DNA of 39,105 nucleotides from Oscillospiraceae bacterium (GCA_015069195.1 SVJA01000018.1:1-39105); one strand, 5' to 3'. Counted from the first letter of the stretch, positions 20,320-30,677 are shown. Program-made: numbers and translations. Notes: generated by a model from the letters alone, not told the origin.

Positions 20320-21900
20320 ATGAAGAAAAAACTTTTAGCTTTATTGGTTGCTCTCACATTGATTTGCTCAATGTTTGCGACCGTAAGCGTAAGTGCTGCT
20401 ACCAGCTACAATGTTGATTTGTCTGTTGCAGGCGGTACTACAGGTTTCACAGCTCACGGATATGATGCATCTACTGTAGGTATTATGTTCGGATACGGTA
20501 AGGTTGTAGATCTGGGAAGCATAAATCTTGCCGATTACAAGTCTATTGCAATTACTTATGCGAATGACCCCAGCTTTACTGCTATGCAGAGCGGAATGGC
20601 TATGACTGCTTGCTTTGCTATTGCGAAGAGCAATGTATCTATCGGTAATCCTGATCCTAATTCCCCGGTTGATAATTCAGGTCACGCAGACATTCTTGCA
20701 AAGGCTGATTGTACAAATGCTTCCGGTACACCGAGTGCTTGGAAAGCAAACGAGAGAACAGCTACTATAGATATTTCAGCTATTACTTACTCAGGTAAAG
20801 TATATCTCTCGCATTTCAACTCTAGAGGCCATGAGTCTTTGGTTACAAAAATCAGACTTGTCGCTGCTGATACAGGTTCAAGCAACCCCGGTTCATACGA
20901 TGCTCAGATAAATCTTGATGCTATGAATATTTCATGCTGGACAGCAAAGAAAACTATTATTTTCGACAATGATTATAAGGATACGGCATATAGAGGTAAG
21001 TATCACAACACCATAGTTTGTACATACAGCGACACAGAAGGTACGTACGTTGTTACAAGCAAATCCGTCATCGGTGAGCCTGCAGGCAATCTTAACTCCA
21101 CAACTATTGCTGACAATCAGATTGTAATTGATGCTACAGGTACAGAGGCAGTTGCTGCGAACCAGGCCGGTTGGGATGCGGTTCAGGTCGGCTCGCTTAT
21201 CTATCTTGAAGGTGTAGATCGTGAAGCTAATACTATCGAGGCAGGTGCTTTTGCAGGTATCGTAAACAAAGATGGCGTCCAGATTCCGGATGCTCCGGAC
21301 CTTCCGGATCCGCCGGTTGCTTTCCATACATCTATTGATTTTGTTATTACCGATGGCGTTCAGGAAATGACACCGGGTAGCGGTGGTGCAGCGACATTCA
21401 CATATTCCAACGCTTTTGATATCGAACAGTCTATTGCATTCGGTGGTTGGGCAGCTACTCCGAACGGTGTTGCTAAATATCAGTATTCGATTGATGGCGA
21501 AAATTTCTATGACATAACAGACGCGACTATTTCAGCCAGACCTGATCTTGCAGGGCAGCCTCACGAAGGTGGACACTCTACCGCAGGATTTGTTGTTACA
21601 ATTCCTGTTACAGCATTTAATGACGGTCAGAACAATCTCACAATCCGTCTTATTGATACACAGGACGGCTATGCAGACATTATCAAAGCTACTGTAAATG
21701 CAGATAATCCGGCAGGTGCTCAGATCCCCGGCGGTGATTCTGATGATGACCAGAACAATGATCAGAATAACAATCAAAATAACAATAATAACCAGAACAA
21801 TGCAGGTACAGACGATTCTGTTGCAGTTGTTTTTGTGATGATGGTTGCTATTGTTGCTATGGCAGCAGTTGTTATTAAAAGAAGAAAAGAAAACGTTTGA
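20320..21900 (+). CDS. Modular surface protein 1 (signal peptide, GTDD motif, C-terminal anchor)
   Basis: No family is recognised for the whole 526-residue protein. It has a signal peptide (to about residue 28), then a module A to about 185 resembling the carbohydrate-binding-like second module of the next gene. Module B (about 207-320, around KTIIFDNDY and GSLIYLEGVD) and module C (about 335-470, around GGWAATPNG and RPDLAGQP) are shared with both downstream paralogues. An Asn/Gln/Asp-rich linker leads to AGTDD (495-499), a 20-residue hydrophobic helix and KRRKENV. The architecture is that of a cell-wall-attached protein, but there is no LPxTG. A role in binding polysaccharide or in the cell-surface layer is inference. 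It has its own promoter and terminator. Confidence 0.85.
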   Translation: MKKKLLALLVALTLICSMFATVSVSAATSYNVDLSVAGGTTGFTAHGYDASTVGIMFGYGKVVDLGSINLADYKSIAITYANDPSFTAMQSGMAMTACFAIAKSNVSIGNPDPNSPVDNSGHADILAKADCTNASGTPSAWKANERTATIDISAITYSGKVYLSHFNSRGHESLVTKIRLVAADTGSSNPGSYDAQINLDAMNISCWTAKKTIIFDNDYKDTAYRGKYHNTIVCTYSDTEGTYVVTSKSVIGEPAGNLNSTTIADNQIVIDATGTEAVAANQAGWDAVQVGSLIYLEGVDREANTIEAGAFAGIVNKDGVQIPDAPDLPDPPVAFHTSIDFVITDGVQEMTPGSGGAATFTYSNAFDIEQSIAFGGWAATPNGVAKYQYSIDGENFYDITDATISARPDLAGQPHEGGHSTAGFVVTIPVTAFNDGQNNLTIRLIDTQDGYADIIKATVNADNPAGAQIPGGDSDDDQNNDQNNNQNNNNNQNNAGTDDSVAVVFVMMVAIVAMAAVVIKRRKENV

Positions 21901-21933
21901 TAAAATTTAATAATAATTTTATTAAGATTTTTG

Positions 21934-21956
21934 CCGCGACGGCGTTGCCGTCGCGG
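21934..21956 (+). terminator. Terminator of surface protein gene 1
   Basis: A perfect 10-bp GC-rich stem (21934-21943 with 21947-21956) with a GTT loop is followed by six Ts. The same 23-nt hairpin sequence ends surface protein gene 2. Confidence 0.92.
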
Positions 21957-21995
21957 TTTTTTGTTTCCGTTGATTAACGAATAGGGTTATTGATG

Positions 21996-22024
21996 TTGCA
22001 AGAAAAAAGGTTTTGTTGTATACT
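21996..22024 (+). promoter_or_regulatory. Promoter of surface protein gene 2
   Basis: TTGCAA (21996-22001), 17 nt and TATACT (22019-22024) form a strong promoter 40 nt after the preceding terminator. The same two hexamers and spacing occur before surface protein gene 3. Confidence 0.75.
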
Positions 22025-22087
22025 TCAAAAAGAATTACTGTTTTTAGTTTTTTATGTGATTTTAAATTTTTTAAGGAGGATTTTATA

Positions 22088-25000
22088 ATGGTAAAATCTA
22101 GTAACAAGATTCTTTCCTTGGCGCTTGCATTGATACTTGTTGTCAATGTTTTTGCCGGAGTGACCTTGTCATCGGATGCTGCGACTTCCTGGATTTGGGA
22201 ACCGTACAGTATGGGATATTGCGGAAGTCATAACGTTACTGCCGTAAATAATACTGCCAGCGGCTATACCACGTTTACGGTTACCGGTGATGACCCGTAT
22301 ACGTATCCGGGCGTTACTGCAGGTTCTGTTGCGAGCAGCTCTATGGGTACGTTATCTGCAGGTTCTTTAAAGTACGGTGTTGTACGTTACAGAACGTCTA
22401 CTGCAGCTACAGGCTCTATACTTGCTAATGCCGGTGCGGCGGTTACTTCTTTGGGTGCGTATAACGGCACAGGCGAGTGGACTGACTTTAAGTTTGACTC
22501 TAATTTGACGGGCACTATTGATTGGTATAGGTATGATATGTTTGACGGAAATGCCGGTGTTATCGACGTTGCTTTTGTTGCATACTTTGATACTTCCGCA
22601 AACCGTGATACATACCTTGCAAACAGAGCTGTGCCTGTTGAGTATACGACGGAGGAAATTAGTGTAAACGGTCCTTATCTGGAGTCTATAAACAGTACAG
22701 GTACGTATCAGATCCAAAACGGTACAGGTGCTGCGACTGACTATGCCGCTTTTGGCACTTCGTGGACTGCTGCGGGTTTTGCCGAGGGTTCTTCATTTGT
22801 AAGACTCGGTTACGATAACTACGTATACCTCGGAGATTATAATTTTGCAAACGTTGATCAGATTATAATCACTTACCACACAGACGGAGGTCTTAATGTC
22901 GATAATACAGAGAGACCCGGCGCCAAGTATTCCGTTGGTCTTGCAAAAACTGCATCTTCGTTTGGTTGGGCAGATCAGGAACCTAATTTCTCTCAGGCTA
23001 TTGCATATGGTGCGCTTTCGAACGGAACAACGAATGGTTGGCCGGAAGCCAGAACTGTGACTTTGACCAATATAGATAAAACGTACAGCGGCGGCGTATG
23101 GCTTACGTCTTATGCTTGTAATACTAATATGCTTGTCGTTACAGGTATTACGTTGGTAAGGGCAGAGGCTCAGTTTGATCCTTCTATGGAGAAGGTTGTA
23201 GACGTAGAGTTCTCCGAGTCCGGAATCGTAGACAATCTCAGCGGTGCTTTCGGTGATGTTACGGGAGCCGCTACGTCATATGCAAAGGATTCCGTAGCAG
23301 ATATTTATGCAGCAAACTTTGATAACTCTTCAAGTAATTCAGCTGCTATTAAAACAGCTCCGCTTCCGAAAGCTGCTTTGAATGTTTTGGCTGCTACGTC
23401 TACGTACGAGACTTATTTTAAAATGACTCCTTCTGCAGCAGCTGAAGAAGCAGTATTCTCTTCTTGCGAGGCTGCAGGCGTAGGTTTGTTCAGCCCTGCT
23501 AACGAGACTTCTAAATATGAGTTCTATATCCGTGACAGTGCAGGATACAAAGTTCTGACATTCAGCGGAGCTACTAATGATACTTGGTATCATATGGTTG
23601 TAGTTGTAAACAACAAAGTTGCTACTATGTACGTTAACGGTGTTTCTGTTGCTACAGCTACGCTTGAAAGTGATATCGTGTGGACGAATGACGGCGGATA
23701 TACTCCGAATACGTTTGTTATCGGCGGTGACATCAGTGCTACAGACGGTATTACGGAATATGCAAAAGATCTCAGCGTAGGTTTTGCGAGAGTTTATACA
23801 AGAGCTTTGAGTGCTACAGAAGTTCTTACTGCTTATGAAGCTTTAGAAGTAAAATACAACGTATCTGTAGGAACAGTTACAAACGGTACAGTTACTATCA
23901 ATCCTACAGGTTCTGTAAATGACGGTACGGAAGTTACGGTTACAGCTACTCCGGCTACAGGATATGAGCTTGACGAGATTCTCGTAAACGGATCAGCTAT
24001 CACAGGAAATACATTTACAGTTACGGAAGATGCTGTAGTTACGGCTACGTTTAAGAAAATTAAATACAACGTTTCCGTAGGAACAGTTACAAACGGTACT
24101 GTTACCACAAGTGCTACAGGCAGCATTGATTACGGTACAACGATTACTGTTACAGCGACACCTGTCGACGGATATCAGCTTGAAGCGATTCTTGTAAACG
24201 GCTCTGCTATTACAGGAAACACGTTTACTGTTACTGAAGCTGCCGTTGTTACAGCTACGTTTAAAGAAATTCCCGTAACTGCAACTACGTATGAAGTTTC
24301 AACAGGTACAGTTACAAACGGTACCGTTGCAGCTACTCCGAACGGAACTGTTGAAGAGGGCACAACGATCACGGTTACGGCGACTCCCGCTGCCGGATAT
24401 CAGCTTGATGCAATCCTCGTAAACGGTACTGCTATCACAGGTACAACTTTTGAACTCACAGAGGATGCTGTTATTACAGCTACGTTCTCTTTGATTCCCG
24501 TTGCAAAATACGACGTATCGGTGGGTACTGTTGAAAACGGTACAGTTACGGTTGCTCCGAACGGCGAGGTAGAAGAGGGTACGACTGTTACCGTTACTGC
24601 TACTGCTGCTGACGGATATACTCTTGATCAGATTTTTGTAAACGGTACGGCTATTACAGGTACAACTTTTGAAGTAACAGCTGATTCTGTTGTAACTGCA
24701 ACCTTCAAGTCAAACATTGTTTCCGTAGGAAATATTCTTATCGACAAGATGAACTTCAATATTTGGGCACAGCCTTACAATACAATCATTTTTGATGATA
24801 CGTATGCAGGTCCTTTCAGAGGTCCTTGGCAGTATACACTTGTTTGCCGTTACAATTCTGTTCTCGGTAAATACGTTGTAGAAGAAAAATACGTTCCTAA
24901 GGCTGACAGTAATACTTCTTTCAGTCTTGCACCTAACCAGATAATCATCAATGCCGTAAATTCTTCTGCAAGTTATACCGCTTGCGCTGATGTATGGGCT

Positions 25001-25729
25001 GCTACCGACGTAGGAAGCGTTCTTACACTTTCAGGCGTTGATCTTGTAAATCAGACCGTTTCCGCAGGTGCTTACGCTGCTGTTGAAAACGGCGTAACAA
25101 TTCCTGAGGATCCTAACGGCAACGGTACAGAGTATGAAGGAAACAGAATTTCTGCTTACTATATGAACTTTGACTTTATCGAAGCTGATGATAATAAGAT
25201 TGCTGCTACTGACGTAGGCGGTATGGGCGGAGAAGGCTACAAGTACACAGGCGGTAACTTTGACGTTGCCGATAAGCTGGTACTCACAGGTTGGAATGCT
25301 ACTGCTAACGGTATCGATCACTATGAATATTCATTTGACAGATTGAACTTCACAAAGATTGAAGATGCTGTTATCTCTGACAGACCTGACCTTGCAGGTG
25401 CTGACGTTCCTTATCCTACAGGTCACTCAACTGCAGGTTGCGTAATTACAATTCCTGCATCTGCTTTCGGTACTGACGGTACGTACAATCTTACCGTTCG
25501 TGCAGTTGATAAGCAGGGCAACTATTATGATATCTTTACATCTGTTATAAATGCTGACGTTCCCGAAGGTACTGGCGATGATAATCAGGGTGGTCAGACT
25601 CCCGGCGGAAACGGCGGACAAGAAGATAACGTCGGCACAGACGATACTATGGCATTTACTGTCGTAGGACTTATGGTAATGGTTGCTATGGCTGCTGTAG
25701 TTCTTAAAAGAAGAAAAGAAAATATCTGA
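22088..25729 (+). CDS. Modular surface protein 2 with four InlB-type B-repeats
   Basis: A 1213-residue exported protein. The order is: signal peptide (about 1-32); N-terminal module (about 33-185, starting SWIWEPYSMGYC) shared with protein 3; a second carbohydrate-binding-like module (about 200-365) related to module A of protein 1; a LamG/concanavalin-A-like domain (about 370-585); four tandem InlB-like B-repeats (589-874); module B (about 890-990); module C (about 1015-1160); a Gly/Gln-rich linker; GTDD (1183-1186); a membrane helix; and KRRKENI. ATG 22088 is chosen because it has AGGAGG at good spacing and a clean signal peptide; the frame extends upstream only into the promoter. Adhesion or glycan binding is the likely role; no enzymatic motif is seen. 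Confidence 0.87.
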   Translation: MVKSSNKILSLALALILVVNVFAGVTLSSDAATSWIWEPYSMGYCGSHNVTAVNNTASGYTTFTVTGDDPYTYPGVTAGSVASSSMGTLSAGSLKYGVVRYRTSTAATGSILANAGAAVTSLGAYNGTGEWTDFKFDSNLTGTIDWYRYDMFDGNAGVIDVAFVAYFDTSANRDTYLANRAVPVEYTTEEISVNGPYLESINSTGTYQIQNGTGAATDYAAFGTSWTAAGFAEGSSFVRLGYDNYVYLGDYNFANVDQIIITYHTDGGLNVDNTERPGAKYSVGLAKTASSFGWADQEPNFSQAIAYGALSNGTTNGWPEARTVTLTNIDKTYSGGVWLTSYACNTNMLVVTGITLVRAEAQFDPSMEKVVDVEFSESGIVDNLSGAFGDVTGAATSYAKDSVADIYAANFDNSSSNSAAIKTAPLPKAALNVLAATSTYETYFKMTPSAAAEEAVFSSCEAAGVGLFSPANETSKYEFYIRDSAGYKVLTFSGATNDTWYHMVVVVNNKVATMYVNGVSVATATLESDIVWTNDGGYTPNTFVIGGDISATDGITEYAKDLSVGFARVYTRALSATEVLTAYEALEVKYNVSVGTVTNGTVTINPTGSVNDGTEVTVTATPATGYELDEILVNGSAITGNTFTVTEDAVVTATFKKIKYNVSVGTVTNGTVTTSATGSIDYGTTITVTATPVDGYQLEAILVNGSAITGNTFTVTEAAVVTATFKEIPVTATTYEVSTGTVTNGTVAATPNGTVEEGTTITVTATPAAGYQLDAILVNGTAITGTTFELTEDAVITATFSLIPVAKYDVSVGTVENGTVTVAPNGEVEEGTTVTVTATAADGYTLDQIFVNGTAITGTTFEVTADSVVTATFKSNIVSVGNILIDKMNFNIWAQPYNTIIFDDTYAGPFRGPWQYTLVCRYNSVLGKYVVEEKYVPKADSNTSFSLAPNQIIINAVNSSASYTACADVWAATDVGSVLTLSGVDLVNQTVSAGAYAAVENGVTIPEDPNGNGTEYEGNRISAYYMNFDFIEADDNKIAATDVGGMGGEGYKYTGGNFDVADKLVLTGWNATANGIDHYEYSFDRLNFTKIEDAVISDRPDLAGADVPYPTGHSTAGCVITIPASAFGTDGTYNLTVRAVDKQGNYYDIFTSVINADVPEGTGDDNQGGQTPGGNGGQEDNVGTDDTMAFTVVGLMVMVAMAAVVLKRRKENI
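23852..24709 (+). repeat. Four tandem InlB-type B-repeat units
   Basis: Units begin near 23852, 24062, 24287 and 24506, each about 70 residues. They share the pattern VSVGTVTNGTV, GTxVTVTATPAxGYxL, ILVNGxAITG, VTATF. Short linkers separate units 2-3 and 3-4. This is the divergent InlB B-repeat (beta-grasp-like stalk) family. A fifth copy lies in protein 3 (27182 to about 27385). Confidence 0.85.
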
Positions 25730-25764
25730 TAAAATGTGAATGAGAAGTTTTACTGAATATTTTA

Positions 25765-25787
25765 CCGCGACGGCGTTGCCGTCGCGG
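25765..25787 (+). terminator. Terminator of surface protein gene 2
   Basis: The hairpin (25765-25774 with 25778-25787) is followed by TTTTTT and is identical in sequence to the one at 21934-21956. Confidence 0.92.
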
Positions 25788-25831
25788 TTTTTTCTGTAGT
25801 TTTAAAAAAGTTTAAGAAAGAAAAAATTGTA

Positions 25832-25860
25832 TTGCAAAATAGTTAAAAATTTAATATACT
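25832..25860 (+). promoter_or_regulatory. Promoter of surface protein gene 3
   Basis: TTGCAA (25832-25837), 17 nt and TATACT (25855-25860) are identical in hexamers and spacing to the gene 2 promoter. AGGAGG then precedes the ATG at 25922. Confidence 0.75.
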
Positions 25861-25921
25861 CTACAAAGAATTACTATTGTTATTCGGTGTATTTTTTATT
25901 AAATTTTAGGAGGAATTCAAA

Positions 25922-28378
25922 ATGATGAAATCTAAAAAGATTCTTGCATTTGTTGTTTCATTAGCTTTAGTGATCAATCTTTTTGCAGGGATTTCATTGA
26001 CAACATCAGCTGCGACACCCGCTTGGGTATGGTATCCGGCTACTCACGGATATTGTGTTTTGACAAATATGACGTCTGTTGATAATACGACTGAAAATTA
26101 TACAACATTCACCGCAACTGCTGTTGATGGTTTTGCTTATCCCGGTACACAGGCTGCAGGTGTCTTGTCACAGAACACAGGACTCAGTGCGATAAATGCT
26201 ACTGCGAATAAGTATATTGCTATTAAGTACAGAACTTCTGTTGCTAATGGTAGAGCTGAACTTCTCGCTACCGGCGCGCATATAGCAAATTTACCTGCTT
26301 ATATCGGTGATGGTCAGTGGCACACTCTTATTTACTATATTGCAGAGCCTACATGGACGGGTACTATTGAGTGGTTCAGACTTGACTTTATCGATAACCT
26401 CTCAAGCGGAAGTATTGATATTGCCAGCGTTGCTATGTTCCCGACTTTGGCAGCTGCTGAAGAGTTTGCTGGTTTTGGTGATGCGAGCTATAACAAAGTT
26501 ATCGACATCAGTTTCAGCGCAAGTGGTGTTGTAGATAATATGAGCGGAAAATACGGTGCTGTTACCGGTGCTGCTACATCTTATGTAAATGATACTGAAG
26601 CAGATATGTATGTCGGTAAGTTCTCCGGTAATCCGGAAGGTACAGATACTGTTATTTCAGGTAATGTTCCTGCTACAGCTCTTGCTGCTATGGCTAAGAC
26701 TTCTACATACGAAGTATACTTCAACATGGGTTCTGTTCCGGATGTAGAAGAAGGTATCTTCTCTGCATGTGAGGGTGCCGGTGTAGGTCTTTACGGTGTA
26801 TCCGATGGTAGTGATTATGACTTTACTGCTATTGCACGTGACACATCAGGCGGATATGTTACATTGACATATGAGAATCCTACTCTCGGTGAGTGGTGCC
26901 ATCTCGTATTTGTAATAAATAACAAGACTGCTACTTTGTATGCTAATGGTGTCGCTGTTGACACAAAGACTCTTGCCAGTGATGTAGTTTGGGTAAACGC
27001 TGAAAACTTTACTCCTAACAGATTTGTTGTTGCAGGTGACTACAGCAAGGGCGGTGTTCCTTCTGAAGTTGCAGATGATTTGAGTGTTGGTTTTGCAAGA
27101 GCATATGCTAAAGCTTGGACAGCGCAACAGGTTTCTGAAGCATACGCTAACATTCAGGGCGGTACTCCTATTGTTCCTGCTAAGTACAACGTATCAGTAG
27201 GTACTGTTGAAAACGGTACTGTTACAGTTTCTCCGAGCGGTGAAGTAGAAGAGGGTACAACAGTTACTGTTATTGCTACTCCCGCAAGCGGATATGAGCT
27301 TGATAAGATTCTCGTAAACGGAAATCCTATCACAGGTACAACATTCACTGTTACAGATGATTCAGTTGTTACAGCTACATTCAAAGATCCTTCTGCTATT
27401 GTTGCGACAATAAAGATCAACTCTATGAACACAAACGTTTGGACAGGAAACACAACAATAATTTATGACAACAGTTATGCCAGTGACAAAACAGGTACAT
27501 ATCACCATGCTATCATCTGTACATACAGTGCTGAGGAACAGGCATATGTAGTTACACAAAGATGGAACAACGGTGAATCCAGAAATCAGAAACCTGTATT
27601 GGCAGACAATCAGATTTTGATTGACTCTTGCGGAACAGGTATTACAAGCAACCAGGAAGGTTGGGATGCGGTTTATATCGGTTCTCTTATTTACCTCGAA
27701 GGTGTAGATCTTGTTGCTAAAACTGTTGCTGCAAATGCTGTAGCCGGTATCGTAAACGGTGACGACATCATTATTCCTCCGACACCGGTAAGCGGCATAC
27801 ATACATCTATTGACTTCAGCATCGTTGATGCCGGTGGTCAGAATCTCACAGGTGGTGGTGGCGGTGCTAATACCACATACACTTTCACTGATACTTTTGA
27901 TGTCGAAAGTTCTATTGCTTTCGGCGGATGGGCTGCTACTCCTAATGGCGTTGCAAAATATCAGTACTCCATCGATGGTATACACTTCTATGACATAACA
28001 GATGCGACTATTTCAGACAGACCTGACCTTGCAGGTCAACCTTATCCGGAGGGACACTCTACAGCGGGATTTGTTGTGACTGTTCCTGTTACAGCATTTA
28101 ATGACGGTCAGAACAACCTTACAATCCGTCTTATCGATACACAGGATTTGTACTTCGATATAATCAAAGCTACTGTAAATGCTGATAATCCGGGCGGTGC
28201 TCAGATTCCTGATCCGGACGGCGGAAACCAGGATACAGGTAACCAGGGTAACGGAAACCAGGATACAGGAAACACAGGAAATGCGGGTACAGACGATGCT
28301 GTGGCCTTTGTTCTTGTTGCTCTCATGGCTATCGTATCTATGGCAGCTGTAGTTCTTAAAAGAAGAAAAGAATATTGA
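25922..28378 (+). CDS. Modular surface protein 3 with LamG and one InlB-type repeat
   Basis: An 818-residue paralogue of protein 2. It has a signal peptide (about 1-31), the N-terminal module starting AWVWYPATHGYC (about 32-185), a LamG-like domain (about 190-410) and a single InlB-like B-repeat (about 421-488). Module B (about 495-620), module C (about 625-765), a Gly/Asn/Gln-rich linker, AGTDD (788-792), a membrane helix and KRRKEY follow. Module C is almost identical to that of protein 1 and much less like protein 2, so the three genes are mosaic. AGGAGG lies 8 nt before the first of two ATGs. Function is probably surface binding; no catalytic motif is evident. Confidence 0.86.
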   Translation: MMKSKKILAFVVSLALVINLFAGISLTTSAATPAWVWYPATHGYCVLTNMTSVDNTTENYTTFTATAVDGFAYPGTQAAGVLSQNTGLSAINATANKYIAIKYRTSVANGRAELLATGAHIANLPAYIGDGQWHTLIYYIAEPTWTGTIEWFRLDFIDNLSSGSIDIASVAMFPTLAAAEEFAGFGDASYNKVIDISFSASGVVDNMSGKYGAVTGAATSYVNDTEADMYVGKFSGNPEGTDTVISGNVPATALAAMAKTSTYEVYFNMGSVPDVEEGIFSACEGAGVGLYGVSDGSDYDFTAIARDTSGGYVTLTYENPTLGEWCHLVFVINNKTATLYANGVAVDTKTLASDVVWVNAENFTPNRFVVAGDYSKGGVPSEVADDLSVGFARAYAKAWTAQQVSEAYANIQGGTPIVPAKYNVSVGTVENGTVTVSPSGEVEEGTTVTVIATPASGYELDKILVNGNPITGTTFTVTDDSVVTATFKDPSAIVATIKINSMNTNVWTGNTTIIYDNSYASDKTGTYHHAIICTYSAEEQAYVVTQRWNNGESRNQKPVLADNQILIDSCGTGITSNQEGWDAVYIGSLIYLEGVDLVAKTVAANAVAGIVNGDDIIIPPTPVSGIHTSIDFSIVDAGGQNLTGGGGGANTTYTFTDTFDVESSIAFGGWAATPNGVAKYQYSIDGIHFYDITDATISDRPDLAGQPYPEGHSTAGFVVTVPVTAFNDGQNNLTIRLIDTQDLYFDIIKATVNADNPGGAQIPDPDGGNQDTGNQGNGNQDTGNTGNAGTDDAVAFVLVALMAIVSMAAVVLKRRKEY

Positions 28379-28412
28379 TTAATCTGTTTTGATTAATAAC
28401 GATTGATTTTCG

Positions 28413-28439
28413 CGGCGATTTGCTTCTTGCAAATCGCCG
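28413..28439 (+). terminator. Terminator of surface protein gene 3
   Basis: A perfect 11-bp stem (28413-28423 with 28429-28439) with a 5-nt loop is followed by a run of Ts. Confidence 0.9.
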
Positions 28440-28457
28440 TTTTTTTATGTTTAGGGG

Positions 28458-28486: not shown

Positions 28487-28601
28487 GAAAATACTGTTTA
28501 GGACGATTATTCACAATATTTTTCTCTCGGAATTATCCGGAGTGTTTTTGTATATAAATTTTTGTGAATACAGAAAAAATTTAATAGAGGAGGAGTTTTT
28601 T

Positions 28602-30677
28602 ATGAGAAGCGCTGATTTGCGTAATGTTGTATTGCTAGGACACGGAGGAACCGGTAAAACATCAATTGCAGAAGCTATGCTTTTTAATGCAAGATTGATT
28701 GACCGTATGGGAAGGATTGCAGACGGAAATACTGCCCTTGACTATGATGCGGAGTCTGTAAAGCGCAGTGCTTCGGTTAGTGCGAATGTTACTCCGATTA
28801 CATGGCTTGCCAGAAAAATAAATATTATAGACACTCCCGGATATTTTGATTTTGCCGGAGAGATGCTTTCGGGGCTTTCTGCTGCTGCTTCTGCCCTTAT
28901 TGTTGTTGCAGGCGGAGTTGAGGTAGGCGCTGAGAAGGCTTGGGATTTAGTTATTGAAAAGGATATCCCCAGAGCTATTGTTATTAATAAAATGAATGAC
29001 GAAAATGCTGAGTTTGAAAAGATTTATGCGAAAATTCGTGATAAGTTCGGTAAGTCCTGTGTTGCGTTGCAACTTCCTATCAGAAAGGACAGAGCCTTGT
29101 ACGGTTATGTAGATACTGTTACATTGAAAGCTAAAGTTTTTGACAAAAACGGTGATGTGTCCGATCTTGATGACATTCCGGATGATTTGGTTGCTGAGGC
29201 CAAAATGCTTCATGAACGCATATCGGAGGCTGTTGCCGAGTCTGAAGATGCACTTATGGAAAAATACTTCGGCGGCGAGAAATTCACGCAGGAAGAGGTT
29301 ATACGTGGTTTGAAAGCTGCTGTACGTATGGGTGTTTGTACTCCTGTACTTATTGCATCTGCGTATGAGAATCTCGGTATAAAAGAACTGGCTGATAATA
29401 TTATTAAATATATGCCTTCTCCGATTGATATCGGTGATACAACTGCTGAAACTCCGGATGGGAATATAGTTAATATTACAAAAGATCAGGACGCAGAACC
29501 TGTTGCATTCGTGTTTAAGACAGTTGTAGATCCTTTTGTCGGAAGATTGTCATATTTTAAAGTGTTCTCAGGCACTGTAAGGTCTGATTCAGTGCTTTAC
29601 AATCCTGAAAAAGATGCAGAAGAAAAAATCGGACAGCTTTATAATATGAGAGGTAAAAAACAGATTCCGGTTACGGAACTTGTGGCAGGTGATATAGGTG
29701 CTGTTGCAAAACTTTCTGTTACTGTGACAAATGACACACTCTGTACAAAGGTAAATCCTGTAATATTGCCCAAAATAGAATTCCCGGCACCACAGCTTGC
29801 TCGTGCGATTTCAGCAAAGGCTAAAGGTGATACCGATAAAATAGTTCAGGGTCTTACAAAGATTGCAGATGAAGACAAAACATTTAAGTTTGAACAGAAT
29901 TCTGTTACTTCACAGCTTATAATTACAGGTGTGGGCGAGCAACATATTGACGTGATAGTAAGCAAACTTGCAAGCCGATATGCCGTTTCTTGTGAATTGT
30001 CAGACCCAAAAGTTGCTTACAGAGAAACTATTAAAAAGAAAGTTACTGCAGAGGCTACTCATAAGAAACAGTCAGGCGGCAGCGGTCAGTACGGCAAGGT
30101 TGTTATTGAATTCGAACCCGGATATGATGATGAACTTGAATTTGCTGAAACGGTTGTTGGCGGAAGCGTACCGAAACAGTTTTTCCCGTCGGTAGAAAAA
30201 GGACTTCAGCAGAGTATAGAGCATGGTGTTTTGGCAGGATATCCTGTTGTTAAACTGAAAGCGACACTTCTTGACGGTAAGTATCATCCGGTAGATTCAA
30301 AAGAAGTTGCATTCATAAGCGCTGCAAAGATGGCATATAAAAAGGCAATGCCTGATGCTCAACCGGTGCTTCTGGAACCTGTCTACTCGGTGAATATCTA
30401 TATTCCCGATAAGTATATGGGTGATATAATCGGTGATATTACAAAACGCCGCGGCAGAATCCTTGGTATGAATCAGATGCCGAGAGGTATACAGGAAGTA
30501 AATGCCGAAGTTCCTTATGCGGAGATGTTCAGCTATGCTACAGACCTTCGTTCAATGACTCAGGCTAGAGGTTATTTCAATATGGAGTTCGTTCGATATG
30601 AGGAAGTTCCGTCAAATATCGCAATAAAGATTATCGCTGAAGCAAAGAAAGACTTTGTTGACGATGATGAGGATTGA
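28602..30677 (+). CDS. Elongation factor G-like GTPase (EF-G paralogue)
   Basis: The 691-residue protein has all five EF-G domains. The P loop is GHGGTGKTS (13-21) instead of the canonical GHVDAGKTT, switch I has the KRSASV pattern, and DTPGYFDF and NKMNDE form G3 and G4. This matches the EF-G-like (EF-G2-type) branch rather than the main FusA. Such paralogues may act in translocation under special conditions or in ribosome recycling; the exact role here is unknown. The start at 28602 has AGAGGAGGAG upstream; the frame extends 20 codons further without a ribosome binding site. The absence of str-operon neighbours supports the paralogue reading. Confidence 0.9.
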   Translation: MRSADLRNVVLLGHGGTGKTSIAEAMLFNARLIDRMGRIADGNTALDYDAESVKRSASVSANVTPITWLARKINIIDTPGYFDFAGEMLSGLSAAASALIVVAGGVEVGAEKAWDLVIEKDIPRAIVINKMNDENAEFEKIYAKIRDKFGKSCVALQLPIRKDRALYGYVDTVTLKAKVFDKNGDVSDLDDIPDDLVAEAKMLHERISEAVAESEDALMEKYFGGEKFTQEEVIRGLKAAVRMGVCTPVLIASAYENLGIKELADNIIKYMPSPIDIGDTTAETPDGNIVNITKDQDAEPVAFVFKTVVDPFVGRLSYFKVFSGTVRSDSVLYNPEKDAEEKIGQLYNMRGKKQIPVTELVAGDIGAVAKLSVTVTNDTLCTKVNPVILPKIEFPAPQLARAISAKAKGDTDKIVQGLTKIADEDKTFKFEQNSVTSQLIITGVGEQHIDVIVSKLASRYAVSCELSDPKVAYRETIKKKVTAEATHKKQSGGSGQYGKVVIEFEPGYDDELEFAETVVGGSVPKQFFPSVEKGLQQSIEHGVLAGYPVVKLKATLLDGKYHPVDSKEVAFISAAKMAYKKAMPDAQPVLLEPVYSVNIYIPDKYMGDIIGDITKRRGRILGMNQMPRGIQEVNAEVPYAEMFSYATDLRSMTQARGYFNMEFVRYEEVPSNIAIKIIAEAKKDFVDDDED

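Follow-up and report, generated by a model that had tools for sequence, protein, structure and literature searches.

A tandem locus of secreted surface proteins

The window analysed here is the whole 39,105-nt stretch SVJA01000018.1:1-39105 of an Oscillospiraceae bacterium, a Clostridium-like gut organism; the stretch belongs to a 2.0 Mb assembly of 23 contigs (GCA_015069195.1). It contains three tandem paralogous genes, all on the plus strand, which encode secreted surface proteins with Lys-rich signal peptides. The features of the locus are the following:

20320-21900, + strand: surface protein 1 (526 aa), with a signal peptide, a shared two-part C-terminal region, an N-rich linker and an NAGTDD tail
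21796-21897, + strand: sorting-signal-like tail of protein 1 (N-NAGTDD, 20-aa helix, KRRKENV)
21933-21957, + strand: terminator-like (intrinsic) hairpin after gene 1, with an almost identical counterpart after gene 2
22088-25729, + strand: surface protein 2 (1213 aa from ATG), with a signal peptide, a LamG-like domain, four InlB-type B repeats, the shared C-terminal region and an NVGTDD tail
25625-25726, + strand: sorting-signal-like tail of protein 2 (D-NVGTDD, 20-aa helix, KRRKENI)
25764-25788, + strand: terminator-like (intrinsic) hairpin after gene 2
25922-28378, + strand: surface protein 3 (818 aa), with a signal peptide, a LamG-like domain, one InlB-type B repeat, the shared C-terminal region and an NAGTDD tail
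28277-28375, + strand: sorting-signal-like tail of protein 3 (G-NAGTDD, 20-aa helix, KRRKEY)
28412-28440, + strand: terminator-like (intrinsic) hairpin after gene 3
28542-30677, + strand: EF-G-like GTPase gene, a flanking marker that also adjoins the homologue in a sibling species

For gene 2, the TTG start at position 22013 given in the ORF list was rejected as too early, and the ATG at 22088 is preferred because AAGGAGG lies immediately 5' of it. The C-terminal region shared by the three proteins comprises about 270 residues, over which proteins 2 and 3 show 42% and 65% identity to protein 1, respectively. A Pfam search with protein 1 gave no match, and the AlphaFold model of the shared region had a mean pLDDT of 55.7 and was left unused. 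Each gene has a hairpin of its own downstream, and those of genes 1 and 2 hardly differ, which suggests that the three genes arose by tandem duplication rather than forming a single operon. The surface-protein gene is thus tandemly expanded 5' of the EF-G-like gene, with three copies in the window (20320-28378) and one homologue in the sibling species (L172:573-3344).

C-terminal tails and their register

All three proteins close with the same series of elements: a polar linker of low complexity, then N-(A/V)-G-T-D-D, then a hydrophobic stretch of exactly 20 residues and finally KRRKE. The tails read NAGTDD-SVAVVFVMMVAIVAMAAVVI-KRRKENV in protein 1, NVGTDD-TMAFTVVGLMVMVAMAAVVL-KRRKENI in protein 2 and NAGTDD-AVAFVLVALMAIVSMAAVVL-KRRKEY in protein 3. 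A degenerate DNA pattern for N-(A/V)-x-T-D-D followed by the helix and the basic end matched the window three times, at these three tails, and never in 100 dinucleotide shuffles. A motif, a hydrophobic helix of about 20 residues and a basic end also make up the tripartite tail of class B sorting signals. The first-pass annotation had correctly recognized both the tripartite tail common to three consecutive proteins and its sortase-type character with a conserved motif other than LPxTG. The conserved core of this motif is N..TDD, however, and not GTDD.

Homologous tails set the register as N-x-x-T-x-D, in which NAGTDD corresponds to NPxTGD with Pro replaced by Ala or Val and Gly by Asp. The NF033846 (Rumino_NPXTG) profile places the Thr of NAGTDD and NAETDD on the Thr of NPxTG, and does the same with the NPGTGD tail of a relative; in this alignment residue 5 of the tail falls on profile position 4, with end points consistent with no gap. 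The assignment for the genus is accordingly Asn at P4, Ala, Val or Ile in place of Pro at P3, a free P2, Thr at P1, Asp in place of Gly at P1' and Asp at P2'. The first Gly of GTDD is the free position and is occupied by Glu in the sibling species (NAETDD, NIETDD). The earlier reading of the motif as a T-G pair in reversed order was an error of register, ruled out by the NF033846 alignment together with the intermediates NPETDG, NAGTAD and NPPTAD. On sequence grounds, every position of the NAGTDD tails has its homologous counterpart in the NPxTG(D) sorting signal, which is common in this order.

The curated profiles score these tails unevenly. With NF033846 the tail of protein 1 reached 11.3 bits, below the curated cut-off of 23.5, and tails 2 and 3 were not among the matches listed. 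Against TIGR01167 (LPXTG_anchor, cut-off 15.9 bits) the whole proteins scored 19.1 (ORF2) and 13.8 bits (ORF3), ORF1 not being among the matches listed, and the tails alone of proteins 1, 2 and 3 scored 18.6, 25.5 and 20.3 bits. ORF2 also reached 22.6 bits with PF00746 (Gram_pos_anchor, cut-off 20 bits), for which ORF1 and ORF3 were not among the matches listed. The curated models therefore label ORF2 as an LPXTG-type anchor and catch one of the three whole proteins. As the TIGR01167 and PF00746 matches begin at or after the pentapeptide positions, they rest on the helix and the basic end and not on LPxTG.

Conservation in a second species

Genome contigs were scanned with the shared C-terminal region; a first scan gave no match and a second found only the sibling genome, Clostridia bacterium RGIG4242, a roe-deer colon MAG, which was used as the second species of the genus. 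RGIG4242 has three more genes with N-x-x-T-D-D tails, including a homologue of proteins 1-3 that likewise lies directly 5' of the EF-G-like gene. This genome additionally encodes a protein with a conventional PAPETGDD tail. Two contigs there carry almost the same pair of genes, with NIETDD and NAETDD tails (L173; G001 C11:74300-76500), through either true duplication or an artefact of assembly.

Compared in pairs, the six genes of the two species are fully identical (1.0) at N, T, D and D, a set that includes the Asn at P4, the Thr at P1 and the Asp at P2' of class B signals, and have an identity of 0.4 at P3 and P2, the two x positions. Across the 20 upstream linker residues the mean pairwise identity is 0.14, against 0.34 for the helix; four invariant columns out of six were obtained in 0 of 200,000 draws from shuffled linkers. 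Twenty residues separate the P2' Asp from the basic end in every one of the six tails. Two positions depart from class B signals: Pro, common and non-essential at P3, is replaced by Ala, Val or Ile, and P1', small or neutral there (Gly, Asn, Ser, Ala), is Asp in 6/6 TDD tails. The three tails of the window differ per pair by 7-8 synonymous and 9-13 non-synonymous codons; these differences and the retention of the motif in the second species exclude recent duplication as the sole cause of the conservation. The first-pass annotation had described a motif kept while the linkers vary, and had proposed comparing it with its flanks in homologous C termini. This holds for N, T, D and D, invariant beside linkers of 14% identity, and fails for the G of GTDD, which is E in the sibling.

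Distribution across the order and class

NPxTG-type tails match in 27 of the 31 genomes of the order, none of them within this genus, and score above the curated cut-off in 13 of the 31. The motifs in other genera of the order are NPGTGD, NPPTAD, NPQTSD, NPGTND, NAGTAD and NPETDG, and the residue after Thr in the order's tails is Gly, Ser, Ala, Asn or Asp. In a collection of 107 tails, Gly occupies P1' in 86, and the other residues there are Asp (8), Ala and Ser (6 each) and Asn (1). The collection was chosen by profiles and by a rule favouring T and D, which makes these counts descriptive. P2' is Asp in 94 of the 107 (a set chosen partly for T and D), and the spacing from this Asp to the basic end is 18-21 residues in 93. 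Outside the genus, Asp at P1' was found once among the collected tails, as NPETDG in a genome of the same family. Several genomes of that family (L067, L069, L110-L112, genus g3) share a sub-family of tails spelled NPPTAD, a variant with Ala at P1'.

When N-(A/V/I/T/M)-x-T-D-D and a spacing of 20 residues were strictly required, a sample of 391 genomes from the whole class yielded 1 genome with the tail, the source genome itself; RGIG4242, which has such tails too, was not part of the sample. These spellings suggest that NPxTGD gave way in steps, by way of forms like NPxTD and NAxTAD, to N(A/V/I)xTDD, a spelling confined to one genus, with the steps presumably taken in this order.

Sortases and other candidate enzymes

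The window contains no sortase gene, as the first-pass annotation had stated; the sortase genes of the genome lie on two other contigs, with a class B gene on C17 and a class C gene on C16. The class B enzyme SrtB (C17:84687-85220) scored 190 bits against the TIGR03064 cut-off of 154, and by inspection its gene stands beside a DnaD-like gene. Its catalytic His, Cys and Arg are intact. The pocket residues checked were those given for P3/P4 recognition in Bacillus anthracis SrtB (PMC11987632); they are conserved, and a search for a changed pocket in the SrtB of the genus found no obvious compensating change at these residues. Since SrtB is encoded in 30 of the 31 genomes of the order, its co-occurrence with the tails is uninformative. 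The same genome encodes a 992-aa secreted protein, alpha-amylase-like by eye (L174:2958-5936, contig C17), with an NPQTADN tail scoring above the srtB_target cut-off, so SrtB has an obvious conventional client with a residue other than Gly at P1'. The gene of this protein adjoins a glycoside phosphorylase-like gene on contig C17.

The class C pilus sortase is intact-looking and scored 265.7 bits against a cut-off of 160. It belongs to a complete-looking pilus cluster (L175:41-6220, contig C16) comprising a large LPATG protein, a major pilin with LPETG, the sortase and a minor pilin with PPHTGD. The cluster also contains a small sortase-like protein (L175:6217-6807) with a weak PF04203 match over model positions 50-104; by eye it has neither the catalytic His nor the Cys, and it is possibly an inactive sortase relative.

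No exosortase gene of an exosortase/archaeosortase sorting system is present in the genome (PF09721 absent). One rhomboid protease is encoded; as rhomboids occur in 14 of 14 control genomes, its presence is uninformative. A search for sortases and rhomboid or exosortase-like enzymes co-occurring with the motif, proposed in the first-pass annotation, was thus productive for the two sortases and the rhomboid and negative for exosortases, co-occurrence with SrtB telling little. Plain C-terminal anchors with no motif at all are also found in this genome (L012, L014). Tails of the genome were collected by profile searches, which may miss divergent ones.

Probable processing of the tails

With the tail anatomy, the register, the conservation of N, T, D and D, the homology to NPxTGD and the intact class B sortase gene taken together, the three tails are most likely a variant, restricted to this genus, of the class B (NPxTG-type) sorting signal, spelled N-(A/V/I)-x-T-D-D. 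A matching sortase in the genome and a tag that is only slightly altered from a known one point to a modified known system and not to a new one. We consider it fairly probable that SrtB processes the N-(A/V)-G-T-D-D tails at T|D despite the Asp at P1' and the non-Pro P3. In this mechanism, the signal peptide would export each of the proteins 1-3, and the C-terminal helix with its KRRKE stop would hold them in place. The membrane-bound housekeeping SrtB encoded on contig C17 would then recognize Asn at P4, Thr at P1 and Asp at P2', cut after Thr (T|D) and join the protein to peptidoglycan. The invariant second Asp of the N..TDD tails fits published work on B. anthracis SrtB, which is fully active only with Asp at both P5 and P2' (PMC11987632).

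A possible though less convincing explanation is that the tails are relic sorting signals, descended from NPxTGD, which lost the P3 Pro and the P1' Gly, and with them cutting by SrtB, and now serve as plain membrane anchors. The helix and KRRKE would keep the proteins in the membrane, and Asn, Thr and Asp would be retained as a helix cap or for topology. Asp at P1' and Val at P3 are poor or unreported for characterized sortases: our literature search found no NPxTD-type motif and no documented sortase substrate with Asp at P1', eleven P1' residues reached the reporting threshold with an engineered class A sortase, Asp and Glu not among them (PMC8361268), and NVQTG, a motif with Val at P3, was not cut by Clostridium difficile SrtB in vitro (PMC4155245). 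The SrtB pocket, unadapted at the residues checked, points the same way, and the NF033846 score below cut-off counts against the class B reading. With no precedent found for Asp at P1', the relic is a serious rival to cleavage by SrtB. However, the six genes of the two species agree at N, T, D and D without exception even as the other tail residues drift, and a decaying signal would not be expected to keep its Asn and Thr. The genome's own plain anchors bear on both sides, since they demonstrate that such anchors exist there and yet carry no motif. A non-Pro P3 is also documented for Listeria SrtB, for which Pro is not absolutely required (PMC3208642).

It is very unlikely that the class C pilus sortase, rather than SrtB, handles the GTDD tails: although this enzyme appears intact, it sits among its own pilin genes, the genes of the GTDD proteins are located elsewhere and their products are unlike pilins, and Asn at P4 is class B-like. 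Least probable of all is the proposal, raised in the first-pass annotation as a new signal with a dedicated transpeptidase, that N-(A/V/I)-x-T-D-D is a separate signal served by an unrecognized transpeptidase or intramembrane protease distinct from SrtB. The rarity of the exact tail in the class sample, which left out the sibling genome, and the encoded rhomboid protease would agree with it, but rhomboids are present in every control genome and there is no exosortase. With tails homologous to NPxTG(D) and a SrtB available that is an ordinary class B sortase, its His/Cys/Arg triad intact, no new enzyme needs to be invoked, and the proposal found no support.

If SrtB does cut these tails, they would be a natural class B signal in which Asp directly follows the Thr at the cleavage site and Pro is missing ahead of it, widening the motif for finding sortase substrates. 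If they are uncut, a sorting signal would have been retained in form with its function lost. In either case, the N..TDD tails call for no new enzyme.

Comparison with known sorting signals

The genus tails resemble the LPXTG anchors described by TIGR01167 and PF00746 in the helix and the basic end, and ORF2 exceeds both curated cut-offs; they differ in that the tails hold no match to LPxTG itself. The likeness to the Rumino_NPXTG anchor (NF033846), which covers the NPxTG(D) signals of the order, extends to the N-x-x-T-x-D core, the register, the helix length and the basic end, whereas Ala, Val or Ile for Pro at P3, Asp for Gly at P1' and a score below the family cut-off set the genus tails apart.

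Among individual class B substrates, the IsdC signal of B. anthracis, DNPKTGDE, shares Asn at P4, Thr at P1 and Asp at P2', as well as an acidic P5 in the case of protein 2, but retains the P3 Pro and P1' Gly that are replaced in the genus tails. The SrtB substrates of Listeria include NAKTN followed by Asp (PMC11987632). This signal, from Lmo2185/SvpA of Listeria monocytogenes, has the same N-A-x-T-x-D pattern, without Pro at the second position, and is likewise matched to a class B sortase (PMC11987632, PMC3208642). It differs in having Asn at P1' where the genus tails have Asp, and in belonging to a haem-uptake protein rather than to surface proteins with LamG and InlB-type repeats.
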